A DNA stretch of 64,000 nt from Ruegeria arenilitoris (GTDB lineage Bacteria > Pseudomonadota > Alphaproteobacteria > Rhodobacterales > Rhodobacteraceae): the NCBI RefSeq assembly GCF_013030985.1, contig NZ_WPYP01000007.1:62001-126000 (forward strand). The letters are read 5' to 3'. Shown piece by piece: positions 1 to 6,106 of the stretch (the stretch's first letter is position 1; each line of letters opens with the position of its first letter). The notes under the pieces are model-generated. The model did no database searches, was not told where the DNA came from, and saw only the letters and a list, made by a program, of their open reading frames with translations. Both the position numbers and the translations under genes were made by a program.

Positions 1-2740
1 CAAGTTCTTGGAACAGCTCTCGGTGAGAGCCGTCCTTAAGCACAAAAATATCACCTTCCCGCAATTGGCTGACAGGTATGCAGGCATCTTCTGGTCGTGA
101 GGCATCTCTATTCAAGAGAACCAGGTCAGCATGAGGCGGCAAGAACACGTAAGCTGAATAGTCGTCGAGAATGACAGGAGTTCCACTGACCTTTGAGTCG
201 CCCCCGGAGTTAACGGTTCGATAGATACGTTCGAACAATCCATCAAGGTCGGGGCGCTTCTCTGTCGGCGGGATAAACTCTGATAAATCCTCGCTTAGTG
301 TAGCTTTACCTCTCTTCGGGCTGGGCCACACCAACTGCTCGACTGCCCCGCTGGGCTCACGCCCTTCATTTGAGTGTTCCATAGGCGTGCTGAAAGAACG
401 GACACGCCTACGCACCCCGTCCGTTACTCTGTCGAACCATTCTTCTTGAAAGTCGAACATAAGGTAGGTCAATTTTATTGCGGGAACGATTGTATCGAGC
501 CGGCGCATTGTTTCCGCACCGTGCCAGCCGGGAACAACCAAATGTTCCACGGGCGCAACGCGAAATAGTTCTGGCGCGGTAAGACCCGCACCGTGGAGAC
601 CGTTCCCGTTCAGCAGGGCTGTAGTTTCTTGCGCTTCCTGATGGGATCGGCAGAGGATTGTAACTGGCTTGCCCTCCTTAGCGATCCTTTCACCAAAGAT
701 ATCAGGGGAGAATTCGCCATTCTCGGCGAGCTCGTCGAGTGCGTTTGCGACTCCAATCAAGGATTGATCATAAAGCGCTTCAGCCTTAGCAGCCTTCGAA
801 AGAGCCAAGGCTCGTTCCCGTATTTTAGCAGACGCGGAGCTACCCGGGCGCGGCATCCTCCCCGCATCGGAAAGGAAGTTTCTTAATTGCGGCACAATAG
901 GAGTGAAGTCATCTTCCGGATCATCATGTTGATCTTGCAAGAACCGGTTGATTATAGCCAACGCCGGGTTGGGAATTACCTGAACGCTTCGATCAACGAT
1001 CCAATGATTGTATTGTCGCTTCAATCCGCGCGCCAAAGGATCAATTTGCCTGAAACCTCGTGGTTTCAAAGACCACGGCAGAACTACGTCGTCCTCCATG
1101 ATCAGGGCATCTCGGGGCGGACCAGGTACTTCGGAGATATCCGCTAAACAAAGCATCCGCAGATTTGGAATCTCTCGACCGACGAATTCAGCATTGATCT
1201 CGCGATAGGTCATCGAACCGAAGGCAATCAAATCGAATGCGATCACTCCCGCAGGGGGATTCTCAATCAGGTTTCTTGCAACCATCGCGGACCCGCACGC
1301 GTAGATCATCGCCCGATCAATAACGCTTTGCGTCATGGGTTCTTCGCGCTCGGTTCCGCTTATCCAAGTGGCACCGACTACCTTCGAAATTGCGTCACCG
1401 CGACAATGCAGGGAAGGCAAATAGTTTTCCAGTAAGTTGCGTGGAGCTACGACAAGTACGGCACGCCGGGCATCGCTACGAGGCCGCCCTTTTAGAAGAA
1501 AATGTAATGGGTCGATAGAATGGTGTTGCTGCCACGCTGAAACGACAGAACCGTTCGACAAGGTTTTGTAGTCTTGCCGAGGAGATACCTCCATGCAGTT
1601 CACCAGGTTATCAGGCAGGTATAGCCGGCCAGATGAACTCACTTCCACAACGATCTTTTCTTCACCTGCGATGACTTGTCGCCCTAAGTATCGCACACGC
1701 TCCGGACGCTGGCCGAAGTTTAGCAGATTGAGGATTGTACCCTCTTGCCATCTTCCATTCGTACCGGTCTGTGCATTTTCTCGCATTGCGGCAAGTGTGA
1801 CTGCCCCGACTACAGGTGCGAGAAAGACTTCTGCGTCTCGCAGAGTAATATGGTCGTTTTGCGAGCTTTCAAGCACAGCTTGTGCATTTCCGACGACATA
1901 CTGGCCGAAGCGATCCAGCATCATTCCGCCTGCTGTGAGATATGAGCTTTCCAAATGGGGAATTCGTTGCTGCAAGCTACTTAAATGGGGAAGGCCATAT
2001 GCTTGTTCTTCAACAGTGGCGTAGGCCCATTCAATGACATAGAGATCATCGAGAAGCCCTAATATTCCGATGCCATCCGGTATGACGTCATCAGTTTCCG
2101 CGAGATAAACGAGCGCAGCCCGAGCAAAGCCGGACCCAACACCTTCTCCCCCGGCCGCTTCGATCAATGCTTCCAACTTCTGATCAAAATCGGTGATATC
2201 CGTGATGATCTTCAGGCCTCGAATAGTCTCGACTTGCGTGGATGCCTTGTTGGCGATTTCCCTGGCACATCGCGTGTCATTCTCAGCAGTTCTGAACACA
2301 GTCTGCTGGATGGAGTGCATTTCTTCTTTTGTGATGGCGCTGTATATCCACCCGCCTTCGAAATTCATCCCCAGCTGATCAAGTGCTCGATCCTGAACCC
2401 AGTTCAATTCGCGCAGTCTTTCTTCTTCATGCCAGGACTTCCGGGATTGGTTGAGGAAATAAAGAGCAGAAAGCGCTTCACGGGCCGTTCCATCTCCTTC
2501 TATCGCTTTGCGTCTGAAAGTCGCGGCAAGGCGCAACCATCCAAGGATTTGATAGCCGTTGCTCGTTGGCAGTTCAGCAAATGCCTCTAAGCATGCAGAC
2601 ATGCCCGGCAGGATACTCTCCCATCCATTTATCTTGTTCCCGATTGACTTGGAAATCTTGTCAATCTCGATGTTGATTGCCTCAATACGATTTCTTGGCG
2701 GATAGTCGCATTCAAATTGGCCAAAGGGGCCGGAATTCAC
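1..2740 (-). CDS. Large DUF1232-containing protein, possibly DrmE-like (partial, C-terminus off window)
   Basis: The minus-strand frame stays open from a GTG at 2740 to the left edge, giving at least 913 codons with no stop. The GTG follows an AGAGGTG ribosome site, and a TAG lies two codons upstream in frame, so the start is well fixed. Residues of about 205-243 read like a DUF1232/YkvA segment (IPDGIGILGLLDD, then YVIEWA). The second half alternates hydrophobic strands with loops (AVLVVAPRN, GKPVTILCRSHQEA) and suggests a helicase- or nuclease-like fold, but I see no Walker A. Large proteins of this build, such as the DISARM factor DrmE, occur beside 5mC methyltransferases in phage-defence loci. 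The resemblance to DrmE is from memory and not tested. The gene is divergent from the methyltransferase and clearly lower in GC than the core genes. Confidence 0.6.
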   Translation of the reverse strand, partial: MNSGPFGQFECDYPPRNRIEAINIEIDKISKSIGNKINGWESILPGMSACLEAFAELPTSNGYQILGWLRLAATFRRKAIEGDGTAREALSALYFLNQSRKSWHEEERLRELNWVQDRALDQLGMNFEGGWIYSAITKEEMHSIQQTVFRTAENDTRCAREIANKASTQVETIRGLKIITDITDFDQKLEALIEAAGGEGVGSGFARAALVYLAETDDVIPDGIGILGLLDDLYVIEWAYATVEEQAYGLPHLSSLQQRIPHLESSYLTAGGMMLDRFGQYVVGNAQAVLESSQNDHITLRDAEVFLAPVVGAVTLAAMRENAQTGTNGRWQEGTILNLLNFGQRPERVRYLGRQVIAGEEKIVVEVSSSGRLYLPDNLVNCMEVSPRQDYKTLSNGSVVSAWQQHHSIDPLHFLLKGRPRSDARRAVLVVAPRNLLENYLPSLHCRGDAISKVVGATWISGTEREEPMTQSVIDRAMIYACGSAMVARNLIENPPAGVIAFDLIAFGSMTYREINAEFVGREIPNLRMLCLADISEVPGPPRDALIMEDDVVLPWSLKPRGFRQIDPLARGLKRQYNHWIVDRSVQVIPNPALAIINRFLQDQHDDPEDDFTPIVPQLRNFLSDAGRMPRPGSSASAKIRERALALSKAAKAEALYDQSLIGVANALDELAENGEFSPDIFGERIAKEGKPVTILCRSHQEAQETTALLNGNGLHGAGLTAPELFRVAPVEHLVVPGWHGAETMRRLDTIVPAIKLTYLMFDFQEEWFDRVTDGVRRRVRSFSTPMEHSNEGREPSGAVEQLVWPSPKRGKATLSEDLSEFIPPTEKRPDLDGLFERIYRTVNSGGDSKVSGTPVILDDYSAYVFLPPHADLVLLNRDASRPEDACIPVSQLREGDIFVLKDGSHRELFQEL

Positions 2741-3174
2741 TTTCTACACCTCTCTGAAAAGACTGTTCACTTGCGTAATCGCGCCGATGCCAGCATGTTC
2801 AGCCTACCTACTCACCAGCAACTCTAAGCACCGCTGCGGAAAAGTCGATCACTTTCTGATTGCAGAAACTCTTCCCACAATTCATCGTCGTGAAAGCACA
2901 TTTCAGATGTTTCTTTGTTAGTTCTCTGAAGGTTATTCTCCAGAAGCCAACTTCTCAAAGCAGACAACCCCACTAACCACTCGAGGATTGGTCTCCAAGC
3001 TGTTCAATGATCCGAGGAGACCGACGGTCTGTCCAATTACTTTGTTTGCAAGTGTGTGCGTATCGCATCATCCTGCTCGCCATTTTCTTGAAAACCTCGA
3101 TCAACCCCCTATGGTAGCGCGAAACAGTTTGCATTGAGCTATTGGCAATCAAACGACCAAAGGGAGGGCCCCGG
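2741..3174. promoter_or_regulatory. Divergent intergenic region between the DUF1232 protein and the methyltransferase
   Basis: About 430 AT-rich bases separate two divergent genes, so promoters for both must lie here. I see no convincing ORF: an 83-codon minus-strand frame at 2973-3224 runs into the methyltransferase 5' end and has no recognisable product. I found no controller-protein gene or clear operator repeats. Confidence 0.4.
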
Positions 3175-4326
3175 TTGGACGGAGGAAACAACCTACATCG
3201 GGTCCTTGTGGACACGTCTACCAATCAACTACAGGCAGTGGATTTGTTCTGCGGTGCTGGAGGGTTTTCCCTGGCAGCCTACAATGCTGGGTTCCATGTG
3301 GAATTTGCGGTTGAGAACGACAAGTTTGCCGTCGACACGTACCGGGAAAACTTCAACACGAAACTACAGTTAAAAACGACTCTTTATGACGACAGCATCA
3401 ATGAACTGAAGCCTAAACGTCTTGTAAAAAAGCACTTCTCCGAAACCGGATGCGATATCGTTCTTGGAGGCCCACCATGTCAGGGTTTCTCCACTCATCG
3501 CATCAATGATGCCGGGGTTGACGACCCAAGAAACAAGCTCATCCTCAGTTACTTCAATTTCGTCGAAACTCTACGCCCCCGTGCGTTCCTTATGGAGAAC
3601 GTTCCCGGGATTTTGTGGCCGCGACACGAAAAGTTCCTGGAGGAATTCAACTCAAGAGCCGAGAAAGCTGGCTACAAAGTTTTCCCTCCTGCTATTTTGG
3701 ATGCAAGAGACTTTGGTGTTCCTCAAAGACGAAAGCGTGTGTTCATATTAGGGACACGAAATGACCTTTCAGCGTCCGCGCTCTTATGGCCTCCCGCTCC
3801 AAGTCACTCCAATTGCGACGACGGCCTGTCTCCGTGGGTAAGCTGTAAGAAGGTGTTCCGAGCAGCGCCTAACCAAGACCCCAATGACATACACATGAAA
3901 CATGGGCGTGAATTGGTCGAAGCGTTTCGAAACACACCTCCCAACGGCGGTTCGCGCAAGGACTCGGGTAGGATACTGCCTTGCCACGAGAAACACGACG
4001 GTCATAAAGACGTTTATGGAAGAATTGACCCGGGTCAACCTGGCCCGACGATGACAACTGCCTGCATCAACCCATCCAAAGGGCGGTTTGTTCACCCGAC
4101 AGAGCATCATGGAATCACTGTTCGGCAAGCAGCTCGAATGCAAACGTTTCCTGATAATTTTGTCTTTTCGGGTGGCCTCACTGCCGCGGGCCGTCAGATA
4201 GGCAACGCCGTCCCGGTAGACCTCGGAACGGCGCTTTTGAAACCGATCTCCGAATGGCTTTCCAGTTTGGACGCATCCGTTGATTGTACCTTCGAGCCTC
4301 AGCCTATCCTTGAGTCCGAAGAATAA
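3175..4326 (+). CDS. dcm: DNA (cytosine-5) methyltransferase
   Basis: This enzyme transfers a methyl group from S-adenosylmethionine to C5 of cytosine in a specific DNA sequence. All main motifs are present in order: motif I DLFCGAGGFS, motif IV GGPPCQGFS with the catalytic Cys codon at 3478, motif VI MENVPG, motif VIII QRRKRVFILG, and the C-terminal RQAARMQTFPDNF and RQIGNAVPVDLG motifs. The variable target-recognition region between VIII and IX is compact. The frame opens at a TTG at 3142; I prefer the TTG at 3175 because GGGAGGG lies six bases before it. A GTG at 3208 is also possible. Gene vsr follows after 45 bases. The DUF1232 gene is divergent. The sequence target cannot be read from the protein. 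Confidence 0.93.
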   Translation: MDGGNNLHRVLVDTSTNQLQAVDLFCGAGGFSLAAYNAGFHVEFAVENDKFAVDTYRENFNTKLQLKTTLYDDSINELKPKRLVKKHFSETGCDIVLGGPPCQGFSTHRINDAGVDDPRNKLILSYFNFVETLRPRAFLMENVPGILWPRHEKFLEEFNSRAEKAGYKVFPPAILDARDFGVPQRRKRVFILGTRNDLSASALLWPPAPSHSNCDDGLSPWVSCKKVFRAAPNQDPNDIHMKHGRELVEAFRNTPPNGGSRKDSGRILPCHEKHDGHKDVYGRIDPGQPGPTMTTACINPSKGRFVHPTEHHGITVRQAARMQTFPDNFVFSGGLTAAGRQIGNAVPVDLGTALLKPISEWLSSLDASVDCTFEPQPILESEE

Positions 4327-4371
4327 GTGAGAAAACGTCTCTCCCCAATTGGGAAACGACCCTTTTGAGAT

Positions 4372-4803
4372 ATGGTTAAAGCGAAACCCGAATTTCAGGA
4401 GCCAATTGACCCTCAGCGGTCCAAGATGATGGCGTCAATTGGGCAACAGGGGACGAAACCAGAGATGATAGTTCGCCGCCTTTGCCACTCACTTGGGTAT
4501 CGGTATCGGCTTCATGTTAAAACTCTACCTGGATCTCCTGATCTTGTGTTCCCCCGATGCAAGAAGATCATATTCGTACATGGCTGCTTCTGGCATAGAC
4601 ACGAAAACTGCTCTCGAACAACCACGCCCAAAACAAGAGCCGCGTTTTGGGAGAAAAAATTTGCCGACAATGTTAGGCGTGATGAACAGCAAATTTCGCA
4701 GCTTGGCGCTCTTGGTTGGCAAGTTCTGATAGTCTGGGAGTGCGAAACAAAAGAACAAATCTCGCTAAAAGAAAAGCTGATTAGATTTCTCGCCGGGAAA
4801 TGA
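4372..4803 (+). CDS. vsr: Very short patch repair (Vsr) endonuclease
   Basis: Vsr nicks DNA 5' of the T in T:G mismatches that arise when 5-methylcytosine deaminates, which starts short-patch repair. The 143-residue product has the family length and motifs: TKPEMIVRRL near the N-terminus, the metal-binding Asp57 in SPDLVFP, and IIFVHGCFWHRHENC with His70 and His75. The C-terminal half carries GWQVLIVWECE. It sits 45 bases after the C5-methyltransferase on the same strand, the usual pairing, so it probably guards the same methylated sites. Some vsr-like genes beside phage-type methyltransferases may instead act as restriction nucleases; the sequence does not decide this. Confidence 0.93.
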   Translation: MVKAKPEFQEPIDPQRSKMMASIGQQGTKPEMIVRRLCHSLGYRYRLHVKTLPGSPDLVFPRCKKIIFVHGCFWHRHENCSRTTTPKTRAAFWEKKFADNVRRDEQQISQLGALGWQVLIVWECETKEQISLKEKLIRFLAGK

Positions 4804-4944
4804 CAGTCTGCACCGACGGTCAGTGATGTTTCAATTGAGAAGCAAGACACTTTTCTCCAATGCCCTCCTTCCTTTGGTCACCCTTAACGATACTCGGCGG
4901 TTCCTATGCGTGACATCGAAAACCGCTTCGCATAGCCTGGCACC

Positions 4945-5775
4945 ATGAGTGGTGAGGAATGGTCAGATTGGGAAAATGACGCCATTGTGGCGGATTACTT
5001 TTCCATGCTCACGGATGAGTTGTCGGGCGCGAGATACAACAAAGCGGCTCACAACCGTGCCCTGCAAGAGTTGATTGGGCGCTCCAAAGGGTCGATCGAA
5101 TTCAAACACCAAAACATCTCAGCGGTCCTTAAGGGGCTGGGTGAAACTTGGATTATCGGATATAAGCCCGCATTCAATTTTCAGAAATCCCTGGAGGATG
5201 CCGTTGCTCGGCATCTCCAGCAGCATGGTGGCTGGCTGACCCCGAGCCACACTCCCAAAATGAAAGCATCCGAGCCTCCGAGGGCTATCTGGATTGAGAC
5301 CCCACCCACCATGCAGAACACGCCGCCACCGGACGAATTGGAGCAAATGCAAGCCGTGGCCAGGAAATTCGATGTGGCGGGGCGAGATGAGAGGAACAGA
5401 TCTCTGGGCAAGGCTGGGGAAGAGCGCGTCCTTCATCATGAACGCGCCATTCTGACCAGTGTAGGCCGACAAGACCTCGCCAATAAAGTGCGGTGGGTCA
5501 GCCAGGAGGATGGCGATGGTGCCGGATATGACATTTCGAGCTTCACACCCGAAGGGAATGATCGCTTAATCGAGGTAAAGACAACCAACGGCTGGGAGCG
5601 CACACCATTTCACATTTCCAGAAACGAATTGGCGGTCGCAGAGGAGAATCGCGACCGCTGGATTCTTTTCAGACTCTGGAATTTCTCGCGGAACCCGAGG
5701 GCATTCGAATTGCGTCCTCCCTTGGGTGCTCATGTCGAACTCACGGCCACGAGCTTTCGCGCCAGCTTTCACTAA
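4945..5775 (+). CDS. DUF3883 domain protein, putative PD-(D/E)xK-type nuclease
   Basis: This 276-residue protein ends in a DUF3883 domain from about residue 155: GKAGEERVL, GYDISSF with Asp196, IEVKTT with Glu210 and Lys212, then FHISRNELAVA. Glu160, Asp196, Glu210 and Lys212 fit the acidic-acidic-x-Lys pattern of PD-(D/E)xK nucleases, so a DNA-cleaving role is plausible. The N-terminal 90 residues (EEWSDWENDAIVADYF...) form a separate helical domain seen in many proteins of unknown function. The gene lies 141 bases after vsr on the same strand and ends the island before tRNA-Phe. It could be the effector paired with the methyltransferase; function is inferred only. Confidence 0.8.
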   Translation: MSGEEWSDWENDAIVADYFSMLTDELSGARYNKAAHNRALQELIGRSKGSIEFKHQNISAVLKGLGETWIIGYKPAFNFQKSLEDAVARHLQQHGGWLTPSHTPKMKASEPPRAIWIETPPTMQNTPPPDELEQMQAVARKFDVAGRDERNRSLGKAGEERVLHHERAILTSVGRQDLANKVRWVSQEDGDGAGYDISSFTPEGNDRLIEVKTTNGWERTPFHISRNELAVAEENRDRWILFRLWNFSRNPRAFELRPPLGAHVELTATSFRASFH

Positions 5776-5911
5776 GACTCACATTGGGGTGCGGATGATC
5801 AGCAGGAGAGTCTGTCCTATGGCTGCGTGCCGCGCCGTCAGCGAGCACCTATTTCTCGGCTTCATTGGGTAGATAGAATGGTATCTTAGCATTGGCTAAG
5901 AGAACTCACGC

Positions 5912-5943
5912 GGAGCAAATTGTGGAGCAAATTGTGGAGCAAA
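5912..5943. repeat. 12-bp tandem direct repeat (2.7 copies) near tRNA-Phe
   Basis: The unit GGAGCAAATTGT occurs at 5912-5923 and 5924-5935, followed by GGAGCAAA at 5936-5943. It lies about 90 bases outside the 3' end of tRNA-Phe, on the island side. Short direct repeats at this place often are arm-type binding sites for a tyrosine integrase, but no integrase gene is in the window. Confidence 0.75.
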
Positions 5944-5992
5944 GCACGCTTTCCTGCACCCGATTAACGGGAGCGTTGGAAGTTTTTCCGTT

Positions 5993-6023
5993 AAAAAACA
6001 GAAAGTTATTGTGACTTTCCTGT
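5993..6023 (-). terminator. Rho-independent terminator of tRNA-Phe
   Basis: Read on the minus strand, an imperfect stem (ACAGGAAAGT pairing with ACTTTCTGT, one bulged base, loop of about seven bases) is followed directly by a run of six T. It lies just downstream of the tRNA-Phe 3' end. Confidence 0.7.
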
Positions 6024-6031
6024 AGAAAAAA

Positions 6032-6106
6032 TGGTGCCCGGGGGCGGAATCGAACCACCGACACGAGGATTTTCAATCCACTGCTCTACCCCTGAGCTAC
6101 CCGGGC
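6032..6106 (-). tRNA. tRNA-Phe (GAA)
   Basis: The 75-nt gene folds as a cloverleaf on the minus strand: acceptor stem GCCCGGG/CCCGGGC, D-arm GCTC...GAGC, anticodon loop TTGAAAA with anticodon GAA, T-loop TTCGATT and an encoded ACCA end. The second anticodon-stem pair is a U-U mismatch. Its 3' end points to the accessory block at 1-6030, the orientation expected if it served as an integration site. Confidence 0.96.

Follow-up and report, generated by a model that had tools for sequence, protein, structure and literature searches.

The window analysed here, a 64,000-nucleotide stretch of a Ruegeria arenilitoris contig (C31:62001-126000), opens with a block of lower guanine-plus-cytosine (GC) content that is the right end of an integrative element inserted at a tRNA-Phe gene. 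We consider it likely that this 18.46-kb tRNA-Phe-integrated element carries a DISARM-like restriction system, consisting of a DrmE-like/NERD-helicase/DrmA/DrmB operon that extends leftwards out of the window and a nearby C5-cytosine DNA methyltransferase gene. The composition, gene order, borders and conserved active sites of the island are described as observed. Coordinates left of the window are given in the locus L002 (C31:48001-68000), a window position being the L002 position minus 14000.

The first gene of the operon encodes a protein of 1081 residues with a DUF1232 motif (L002:13495-16740, minus strand; left end C31:61495), whose 913 N-terminal residues fall inside the window (1..2740). 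It is followed on the same strand, left of the window, by genes for a NERD-helicase (L002:11753-13498, 581 residues), DrmA (L002:8475-11750, 1091 residues) and DrmB (L002:6614-8533, 639 residues), with junctions in the listed frames of a 4-bp overlap, a 2-bp gap and a 59-bp overlap. As these junctions overlap or lie 2 bp apart, the four genes likely form a single operon. DrmA matches the PADLOC DrmA model at 3.2e-223 and chain A of the solved DISARM DrmAB pair (PDB 7s9v_A) at 8.1e-165, and DrmB, encoded separately from DrmA, matches PADLOC DrmB (4e-75), Pfam MZB (3.6e-8) and PDB chain 7s9v_B (3.2e-80). The NERD-helicase joins a Pfam NERD domain (5.2e-10) to Schlafen/UvrD-type helicase models and matches PADLOC RTasNERD-Hel (5.3e-22); its residues E18, D54, E67 and K69, which we take to be a nuclease-type site, are unchanged in all 13 aligned relatives, as are the GKT of Walker A and D349/E350/Q352. 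It is the sole predicted DNA-cutting enzyme common to all seven operons of this kind described below, and judging by its sequence it is likely the nuclease of the DISARM-like variant.

A first-pass annotation of the window had placed a C5 methyltransferase, a Vsr protein, a DUF3883 protein and a DUF1232 gene cut by the window edge in this block, and Pfam, NCBIfam and PADLOC matches put all four where it had them. Its view of the block as a defence-type island also held, with DISARM, one of the families it named for checking, being where the island belongs. Its grouping of the four visible genes into one defence system did not survive, the unit being the operon with the nearby C5 methyltransferase. 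The system it called possibly not fully described is a variant with a NERD-helicase as its likely nuclease, and to that extent the description stands, but it is a variant of the known DISARM kind rather than a new four-gene system. Extension to the left, which the annotation had proposed, found the low GC continuing ~12-14 kb past the window edge and the DUF1232 gene heading the four-gene operon there; a gene cut by a window edge can thus make known machinery resemble a new system.

The DrmE-like protein at the head of the operon

The DUF1232 motif of the window protein (6e-5) is kept in two homologues that stand ahead of NERD-helicase, DrmA and DrmB genes, one in genome G587 (locus L031; 24% identity over 1099 columns, motif at 5.3e-6) and one in G570 (L032; 18% over 889 columns, motif at 1e-4). 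A profile built from the ~185 C-terminal residues of the three DUF1232 proteins was compared with 2211 open reading frames (ORFs) of 32 loci and, beyond its seeds, matched proteins of L064 (4e-12), L033 (3.7e-7), L053 (1.3e-5) and L041 (0.016); the next match lay at 0.33, and the best in shuffled versions of the same ORFs reached E 1.2. In each of the four loci the gene for the matched protein immediately precedes that of a NERD-helicase or of DrmA; the L053 protein is DrmE_C by Pfam (1.2e-6). The L064 locus had been found through a profile of the DUF1232 protein, and its DrmE match is therefore not independent evidence, unlike the genes around it. A full-length profile matched the L066 protein over 296 columns (E 3.4e-12, score 104.5, against 20.3 for the best of 12 shuffles), and this protein scores over the cut-off for Pfam DrmE_C (9.2e-10) and matches PADLOC DrmE at 5.8e-6. 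Because the profiles match the confirmed DrmE proteins of L053 and L066, the ~300 C-terminal residues of the DUF1232 protein are assigned, by profile comparison, to the DISARM DrmE family.

For the ~740 N-terminal residues, which bear the DUF1232 motif, full relatives were found in L031 and L032 only. A Walker A pattern is missing from six of the seven DrmE-like proteins and present in that of L064. Searches with the single DUF1232 protein returned its own copy only, whether in genome contigs, in plasmids, in phages, in 60 relatives or in a further 393 genomes drawn from the family. A search with the DUF1232 alignment gave one locus in genome contigs (L054, the same stretch as L032), no match in viral contigs and, among 398 genomes of the phylum, seven matches besides its own: G1062, which holds L064, matches C-terminally, and the other six match over the DUF1232 stretch only, in small frames. 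The Pfam DrmE_C model had no match in 299 genomes of the phylum and one in 12 plasmid records (L053). In L053, from a Priestia megaterium plasmid, the annotation splits the stretch ahead of drmA and drmB, where drmE would stand, into three reading frames, so that drmE may be broken there.

Recurrence of the gene set

Searching 385 genomes of the class with DrmA matched 12 further genomes; four with E above 1e-8 (G543, G566, G672 and G756) and one with a fragment of 188 residues (G465, L039) were dropped, leaving 8 loci in 7 genomes, and 11 of the 86 plasmid records with matches were examined. Three loci found through the NERD-helicase and lacking DrmA (L045, L046 and L047) were kept outside the locus table. 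The order DrmE_C protein, NERD-helicase, DrmA, DrmB occurs in 7 of the 24 tabulated DrmA loci (the Ruegeria locus, L031, L032, L033, L041, L064 and L066). The 8 loci from the unselected class search comprise three with this set, three class I DISARM loci and two others, both in G789. A C5 methyltransferase lies within the stretch examined in all seven DrmE-NERD loci, confirmed by Pfam in six and annotated in L041, and is divergent from the DrmE-like gene in three (the Ruegeria locus, L031 and L032); Vsr is nearby in three (the Ruegeria locus, L041 and L064). In a tree of 24 DrmA sequences all seven loci, together with L053, a DrmE-only locus, and with L067, which is cut just before drmA, form one clade (support 98/94) apart from class I, from the UvrD-helicase set discussed below and from L040, a locus with NERD-helicase, DrmA and DrmB and no DrmE_C match. 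Within the clade the Ruegeria DrmA groups with those of L031 and L032 (99/99); the finer order of the tree is unsure, as several rows are long-branched.

DrmC was found in none of the seven loci with one known DrmC as query or by a scan for the HxKxxxxD motif. In the Ruegeria region the motif occurs in a single protein, of 254 residues, which has no PADLOC match. The query alone is a weak test, since it matches L037 and its own locus (L051) and misses the class I loci L036, L038 and L052; with the same limit, it had no match in the Ruegeria genome. Proteins encoded downstream in L031, L032 and L033 give weak or partial matches to the candidate nucleases PDC-S14, PDC-S57 and RmuC-like proteins. 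At L041:15718-19577, on plasmid pROB02 of Rhodococcus opacus B4, the operon has a NaeI-type restriction gene, Vsr and a C5 methyltransferase as neighbours. In L046 (L046:5061-11623), on a Sphingomonas naphthae plasmid, a NERD-helicase relative directly follows a 4857-bp gene annotated DUF3883, with no drmA annotated near.

The integrative element and its edge genes

The element measures 18,462 bp from its left repeat to the base preceding its right repeat, at a GC of about 0.51 against about 0.60 around it. The right attachment repeat (window 6027..6050, 24 bp) is identical to C31:49565-49588 (L002:1565-1588) and overlaps the tRNA-Phe (gaa) gene (6032..6106, minus strand), the 3' end of which is the integration site; the 24-bp match of the left repeat to the tRNA-Phe end is perfect. 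That repeat ends 46 bp ahead of a tyrosine integrase frame (L002:1635-3050, plus strand; Pfam DUF6538 and Phage_integrase, PHROG integrase 1.4e-16). The empty site is seen in G011, a sister species and the closest same-genus match there (95% over the query), in which the tRNA-Phe end is joined directly to the left flank of the element, with the left side aligning at 88% over 1372 bp and 80% over 71 bp and the right side at 93.5% over 2374 bp. The block in the window, with a GC of 0.49-0.54 across positions 1-6000 against about 0.60 rightward, is thus the right end of an integrative element, and the earlier description of a lower-GC block terminating at the tRNA-Phe 3' end agrees with both the GC profile and the tRNA position. 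Low GC already starts ~1.5 kb left of the left repeat (C31:48001-49564, L002:1-1564), in a stretch that is mostly common to G011, and an earlier insertion at this site may therefore have left traces to the left of the element. Extra copies of the tRNA end, 46-50 bp long and 96-100% identical, occur in 8 of 36 other genomes of the genus (G014, G015, G018, G024, G025, G028, G029 and G034), in six of them on the contig of the tRNA locus itself, so that the tRNA-Phe 3' end seems to be a recurrent integration site in the genus. One island at such a copy (L148, in G015) encodes an integrase related to that of the element (1.2e-12), a C5 methyltransferase and a protein weakly matching restriction enzymes (9.8e-6); four other stretches examined (L144-L147) contain no relatives of the element's proteins. 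A further gene of the element (L002:4260-5048) has relatives in 22 plasmid records, the best being 66% identical and on a 5.6-kb Sulfitobacter plasmid.

Divergently from the operon, across an intergenic region of 401 bp (2741..3141) in which a repeat search was negative and promoter-like matches were no better than chance, three genes run on the plus strand towards the tRNA. The C5-cytosine DNA methyltransferase (3142..4326; 394 residues) matches Pfam DNA_methylase at 4.4e-64. The Vsr mismatch endonuclease (4372..4803; 143 residues; Pfam 4.8e-26, NCBIfam vsr 4.3e-39) aligns to Escherichia coli Vsr (1cw0) at 3.1e-27 and keeps the PD and HGCFWH stretches, presumably the active-site residues of the E. 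coli enzyme. The third gene (4945..5775; 276 residues) encodes the DUF3883 protein (Pfam NOV_C, 1.1e-23), and a 12-bp tandem direct repeat lies between it and the attachment site (5912-5935).

The DUF3883 protein matches the PADLOC candidate PDC-S36 end to end (2.3e-128), a family that was not found by name in the literature searched. Forty-nine other NOV_C loci were collected, comprising 45 viral contigs (IMG/VR, L069-L113) and 4 plasmids (of 1208 plasmid records with matches, 4 were examined), with at least 1.5 kb on both sides in 24 of the 49. Residues D196, E210 and K212 do not vary among the 44 of 50 alignment rows with sequence at these positions. Seven of the 45 viral loci (e.g. L075 and L092) have a tRNA-Ser whose end lies 350-389 bp ahead of the NOV_C gene, and in 17 the available sequence begins within 30 bases of it, two of these (L108 and L111) being cut inside the gene. 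From its sequence and positions the DUF3883 protein looks like an independent nuclease cargo favouring element edges, and PDC-S36/NOV_C is possibly a provirus- and island-edge gene family.

Proposed mechanism, rival readings and known systems

Comparisons with published work rest on parts of five papers (PMC9142583, PMC9252829, PMC11090510, PMC10952713 and PMC12458937). In the mechanism that we propose, the C5 methyltransferase would mark host DNA as self, and DrmAB would load on incoming DNA that lacks methylation and offers a free 5' end or single strand, and would then translocate. The DUF1232/DrmE-like protein may act as a platform or sensor, and the NERD nuclease-helicase would cut or degrade the DNA. 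Vsr would repair the T:G mismatches that arise from 5-methylcytosine deamination, limiting mutations, and the NOV_C nuclease would be independent cargo at the tRNA edge. We lean, by a little over even chances, towards a distinct DISARM subtype with a DUF1232-bearing DrmE, DrmA, DrmB, a NERD nuclease-helicase cutting instead of DrmC, and C5 methyltransferases that are interchangeable and in many cases accompanied by Vsr. Integrative elements, plasmids and proviruses would spread this subtype, and here it would lie beside a stand-alone PDC-S36 nuclease family that favours tRNA and provirus edges. In the published portions drawn on here, the PLD nuclease DrmC appears non-essential in DISARM (PMC9142583), which leaves the DNA-cutting step of DISARM unclear; a lineage in which DrmC is not detected and the catalytic residues of the NERD nuclease are unchanged (13/13 aligned relatives) offers a direct, testable candidate for that step. 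DrmE, flagged for future study in the same source, would gain a wider family.

Several results weigh against a DISARM-like system. The DUF1232 protein by itself has no PADLOC match, to the DrmE models or any other, and Pfam DrmE_C reaches it only below threshold (E 0.074, residues 923-982) and, up to E 1, does not appear for its homologues in L031 and L032. The C-terminal profile matches the L053 protein by a modest margin over shuffled sequences (score 39.2, best of 20 shuffles 25.5). AlphaFold2 models were unusable both for the portion of the DUF1232 protein inside the window, given one relative, and for the NOV_C protein alone, without alignment (predicted local distance difference test scores of 30.3 and 34.8). 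PADLOC finds no DrmC among 13 proteins of the Ruegeria region or among 8 downstream proteins of L031, L032, L033 and L066, and the known DrmC of L037, scanned alongside as a control, scored 1.3e-97. Near the L041 methyltransferase stands the NaeI-type restriction gene. The weakest link of the model is the methyltransferase, whose service to the operon is argued from its constant presence and its position rather than from common ancestry. The Ruegeria enzyme, for which we propose a DrmMII-like role, scores better with the generic PADLOC model MTase_II (3.8e-89) than with DrmMII (8.4e-54), and the methyltransferases of the seven loci are mostly 24-39% identical in pairs, the exception being 59% between the Ruegeria and L031 enzymes.

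These methyltransferase relationships also favour a reading in which the core DrmE-like/NERD-helicase/DrmA/DrmB operon works without a methyltransferase, recognising DNA ends or replication intermediates, and the methyltransferase-Vsr pair is an orphan module that arrived separately. The closest plasmid relatives (3 records examined, of 2268 with matches) are 62, 56 and 46% identical to the Ruegeria enzyme and sit in another cassette with ATP-binding and response-regulator proteins, which in one of the three also has Vsr; the L031 enzyme is likewise encoded 7 bp away from an ATP-binding protein of this kind (38-44% identity), next to which stands a relative of the response regulator. The ATP-binding protein is, we presume from its sequence, of GHKL type, and around the Ruegeria island no relatives of it or of the response regulator were found. 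Against the orphan reading, which we regard as unlikely, stand the C5 methyltransferase in the examined stretch of every DrmE-NERD locus, its divergence from the DrmE-like gene in three of them and the lowering of DrmAB ATPase activity by methylated DNA in the solved system, as reported in the available part of PMC9142583. Given their low mutual identity and their relatives in another cassette, the methyltransferases of the DrmE-NERD loci look interchangeable. The other cassette, a C5 methyltransferase with an ATP-binding protein of ~990 residues and a response regulator, was seen in Pantoea, Rhizobium and Pseudoalteromonas (L048-L050) and in G587 (L031:1-5491) and looks like a separate system.

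A stand-alone type II restriction-modification unit made of the methyltransferase, Vsr and NOV_C, with NOV_C as the restriction enzyme and the operon as an independent neighbour, is suggested by the shared direction and short gaps of the three genes (45 and 141 bp), by the invariant D-ExK nuclease-type motif of NOV_C and by MTase_II being the best model of the methyltransferase. We nevertheless hold it to be quite improbable, as relatives of this methyltransferase, of Vsr or of DrmA are absent from the flanks examined at all 49 other NOV_C loci, 24 of which have at least 1.5 kb on both sides. Two of the four plasmids do carry other DNA methyltransferases (L024 a type I system and L026 a site-specific DNA-methyltransferase), but several kb from NOV_C and not beside it, and the annotation shows no NOV_C next to any of the three closest plasmid relatives of the methyltransferase. 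With no recurrent pairing, NOV_C was rejected as restriction partner of the methyltransferase. The same survey bears on the co-occurrence that the first-pass annotation had put forward for checking, which also failed in the other direction, the DUF3883 protein being found in none of the stretches examined at the 23 other tabulated DrmA loci. One new four-gene system of methyltransferase, Vsr, DUF3883 and DUF1232 proteins has in its favour their physical adjacency in this one genome, but no further locus among those examined showed all four together, and L031 and L032 have no Vsr or NOV_C matches and hold NERD-helicase, DrmA and DrmB instead; on the content of these two loci and the NOV_C and DrmA locus tables we rejected it and consider it very improbable.

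Among known systems, DISARM class I (drmD, drmMI, drmA, drmB, drmC) shares DrmA and DrmB with the island, whereas the island's DrmA falls in another clade and a DrmE-like protein is present. Queries for DrmD and DrmMI, termed BrxHII-like and PglX-like in the source (PMC12458937, in part), had no match in 26 kb around the operon; on this ground, and with DrmA and DrmB being separate genes, membership of ARMADA was rejected. Loci with the UvrD-helicase/DrmA/DrmB/NERD-helicase set, a second DISARM-like set seen in five loci (L028, L034, L042, L043 and L044), share DrmA, DrmB, NERD-helicase and often a C5 methyltransferase (4/5) and Vsr (3/5), but their UvrD gene precedes drmA, their NERD-helicase follows drmB, they have no DrmE_C match and their DrmA lies in another clade. 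One of them, L044 on Rhizobium rhizogenes pC6.5c, also has a DUF2357 gene. TALON, as presented in the portion of PMC12458937 drawn on, resembles the island in combining a YprA-family helicase with a NERD nuclease, whereas its ARMADA-like YprA, TPR-CSD and TBP proteins are its own and it is largely confined to Chloroflexota; a Pfam scan of 9 L002 proteins lists no TPR-CSD or TBP, no search having been aimed at them by name. Bell et al. 2024 (PMC11090510) link McrBC branches to a DISARM-like system, and Bell et al. 2025 (PMC12458937) describe many DISARM-like classes as uncharacterised. No description of a DrmE-NERD-DrmA-DrmB operon was found in the literature searched, supplements and the text of Ofir et al. 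2018 lying outside that search.

The closest comparison is with DISARM type or class II, with which the island has in common DrmA, a DrmB encoded by its own gene, a C-terminal region of the DrmE family and a C5 methyltransferase, and its DrmA clades with that of a DrmE-bearing locus. The island differs in having no detected DrmC, in the NERD nuclease-helicase gene that separates drmA from the DrmE-like gene, in the divergent DUF1232-bearing N-terminal part of its DrmE-like protein and in a methyltransferase that is not clearly DrmMII. The PADLOC definition of type II comprises DrmA, DrmB, DrmC, DrmE and DrmMII (PMC9252829, in the part drawn on), and as the required DrmC was not detected, we do not file the island as type II DISARM; its system probably works like type II DISARM.

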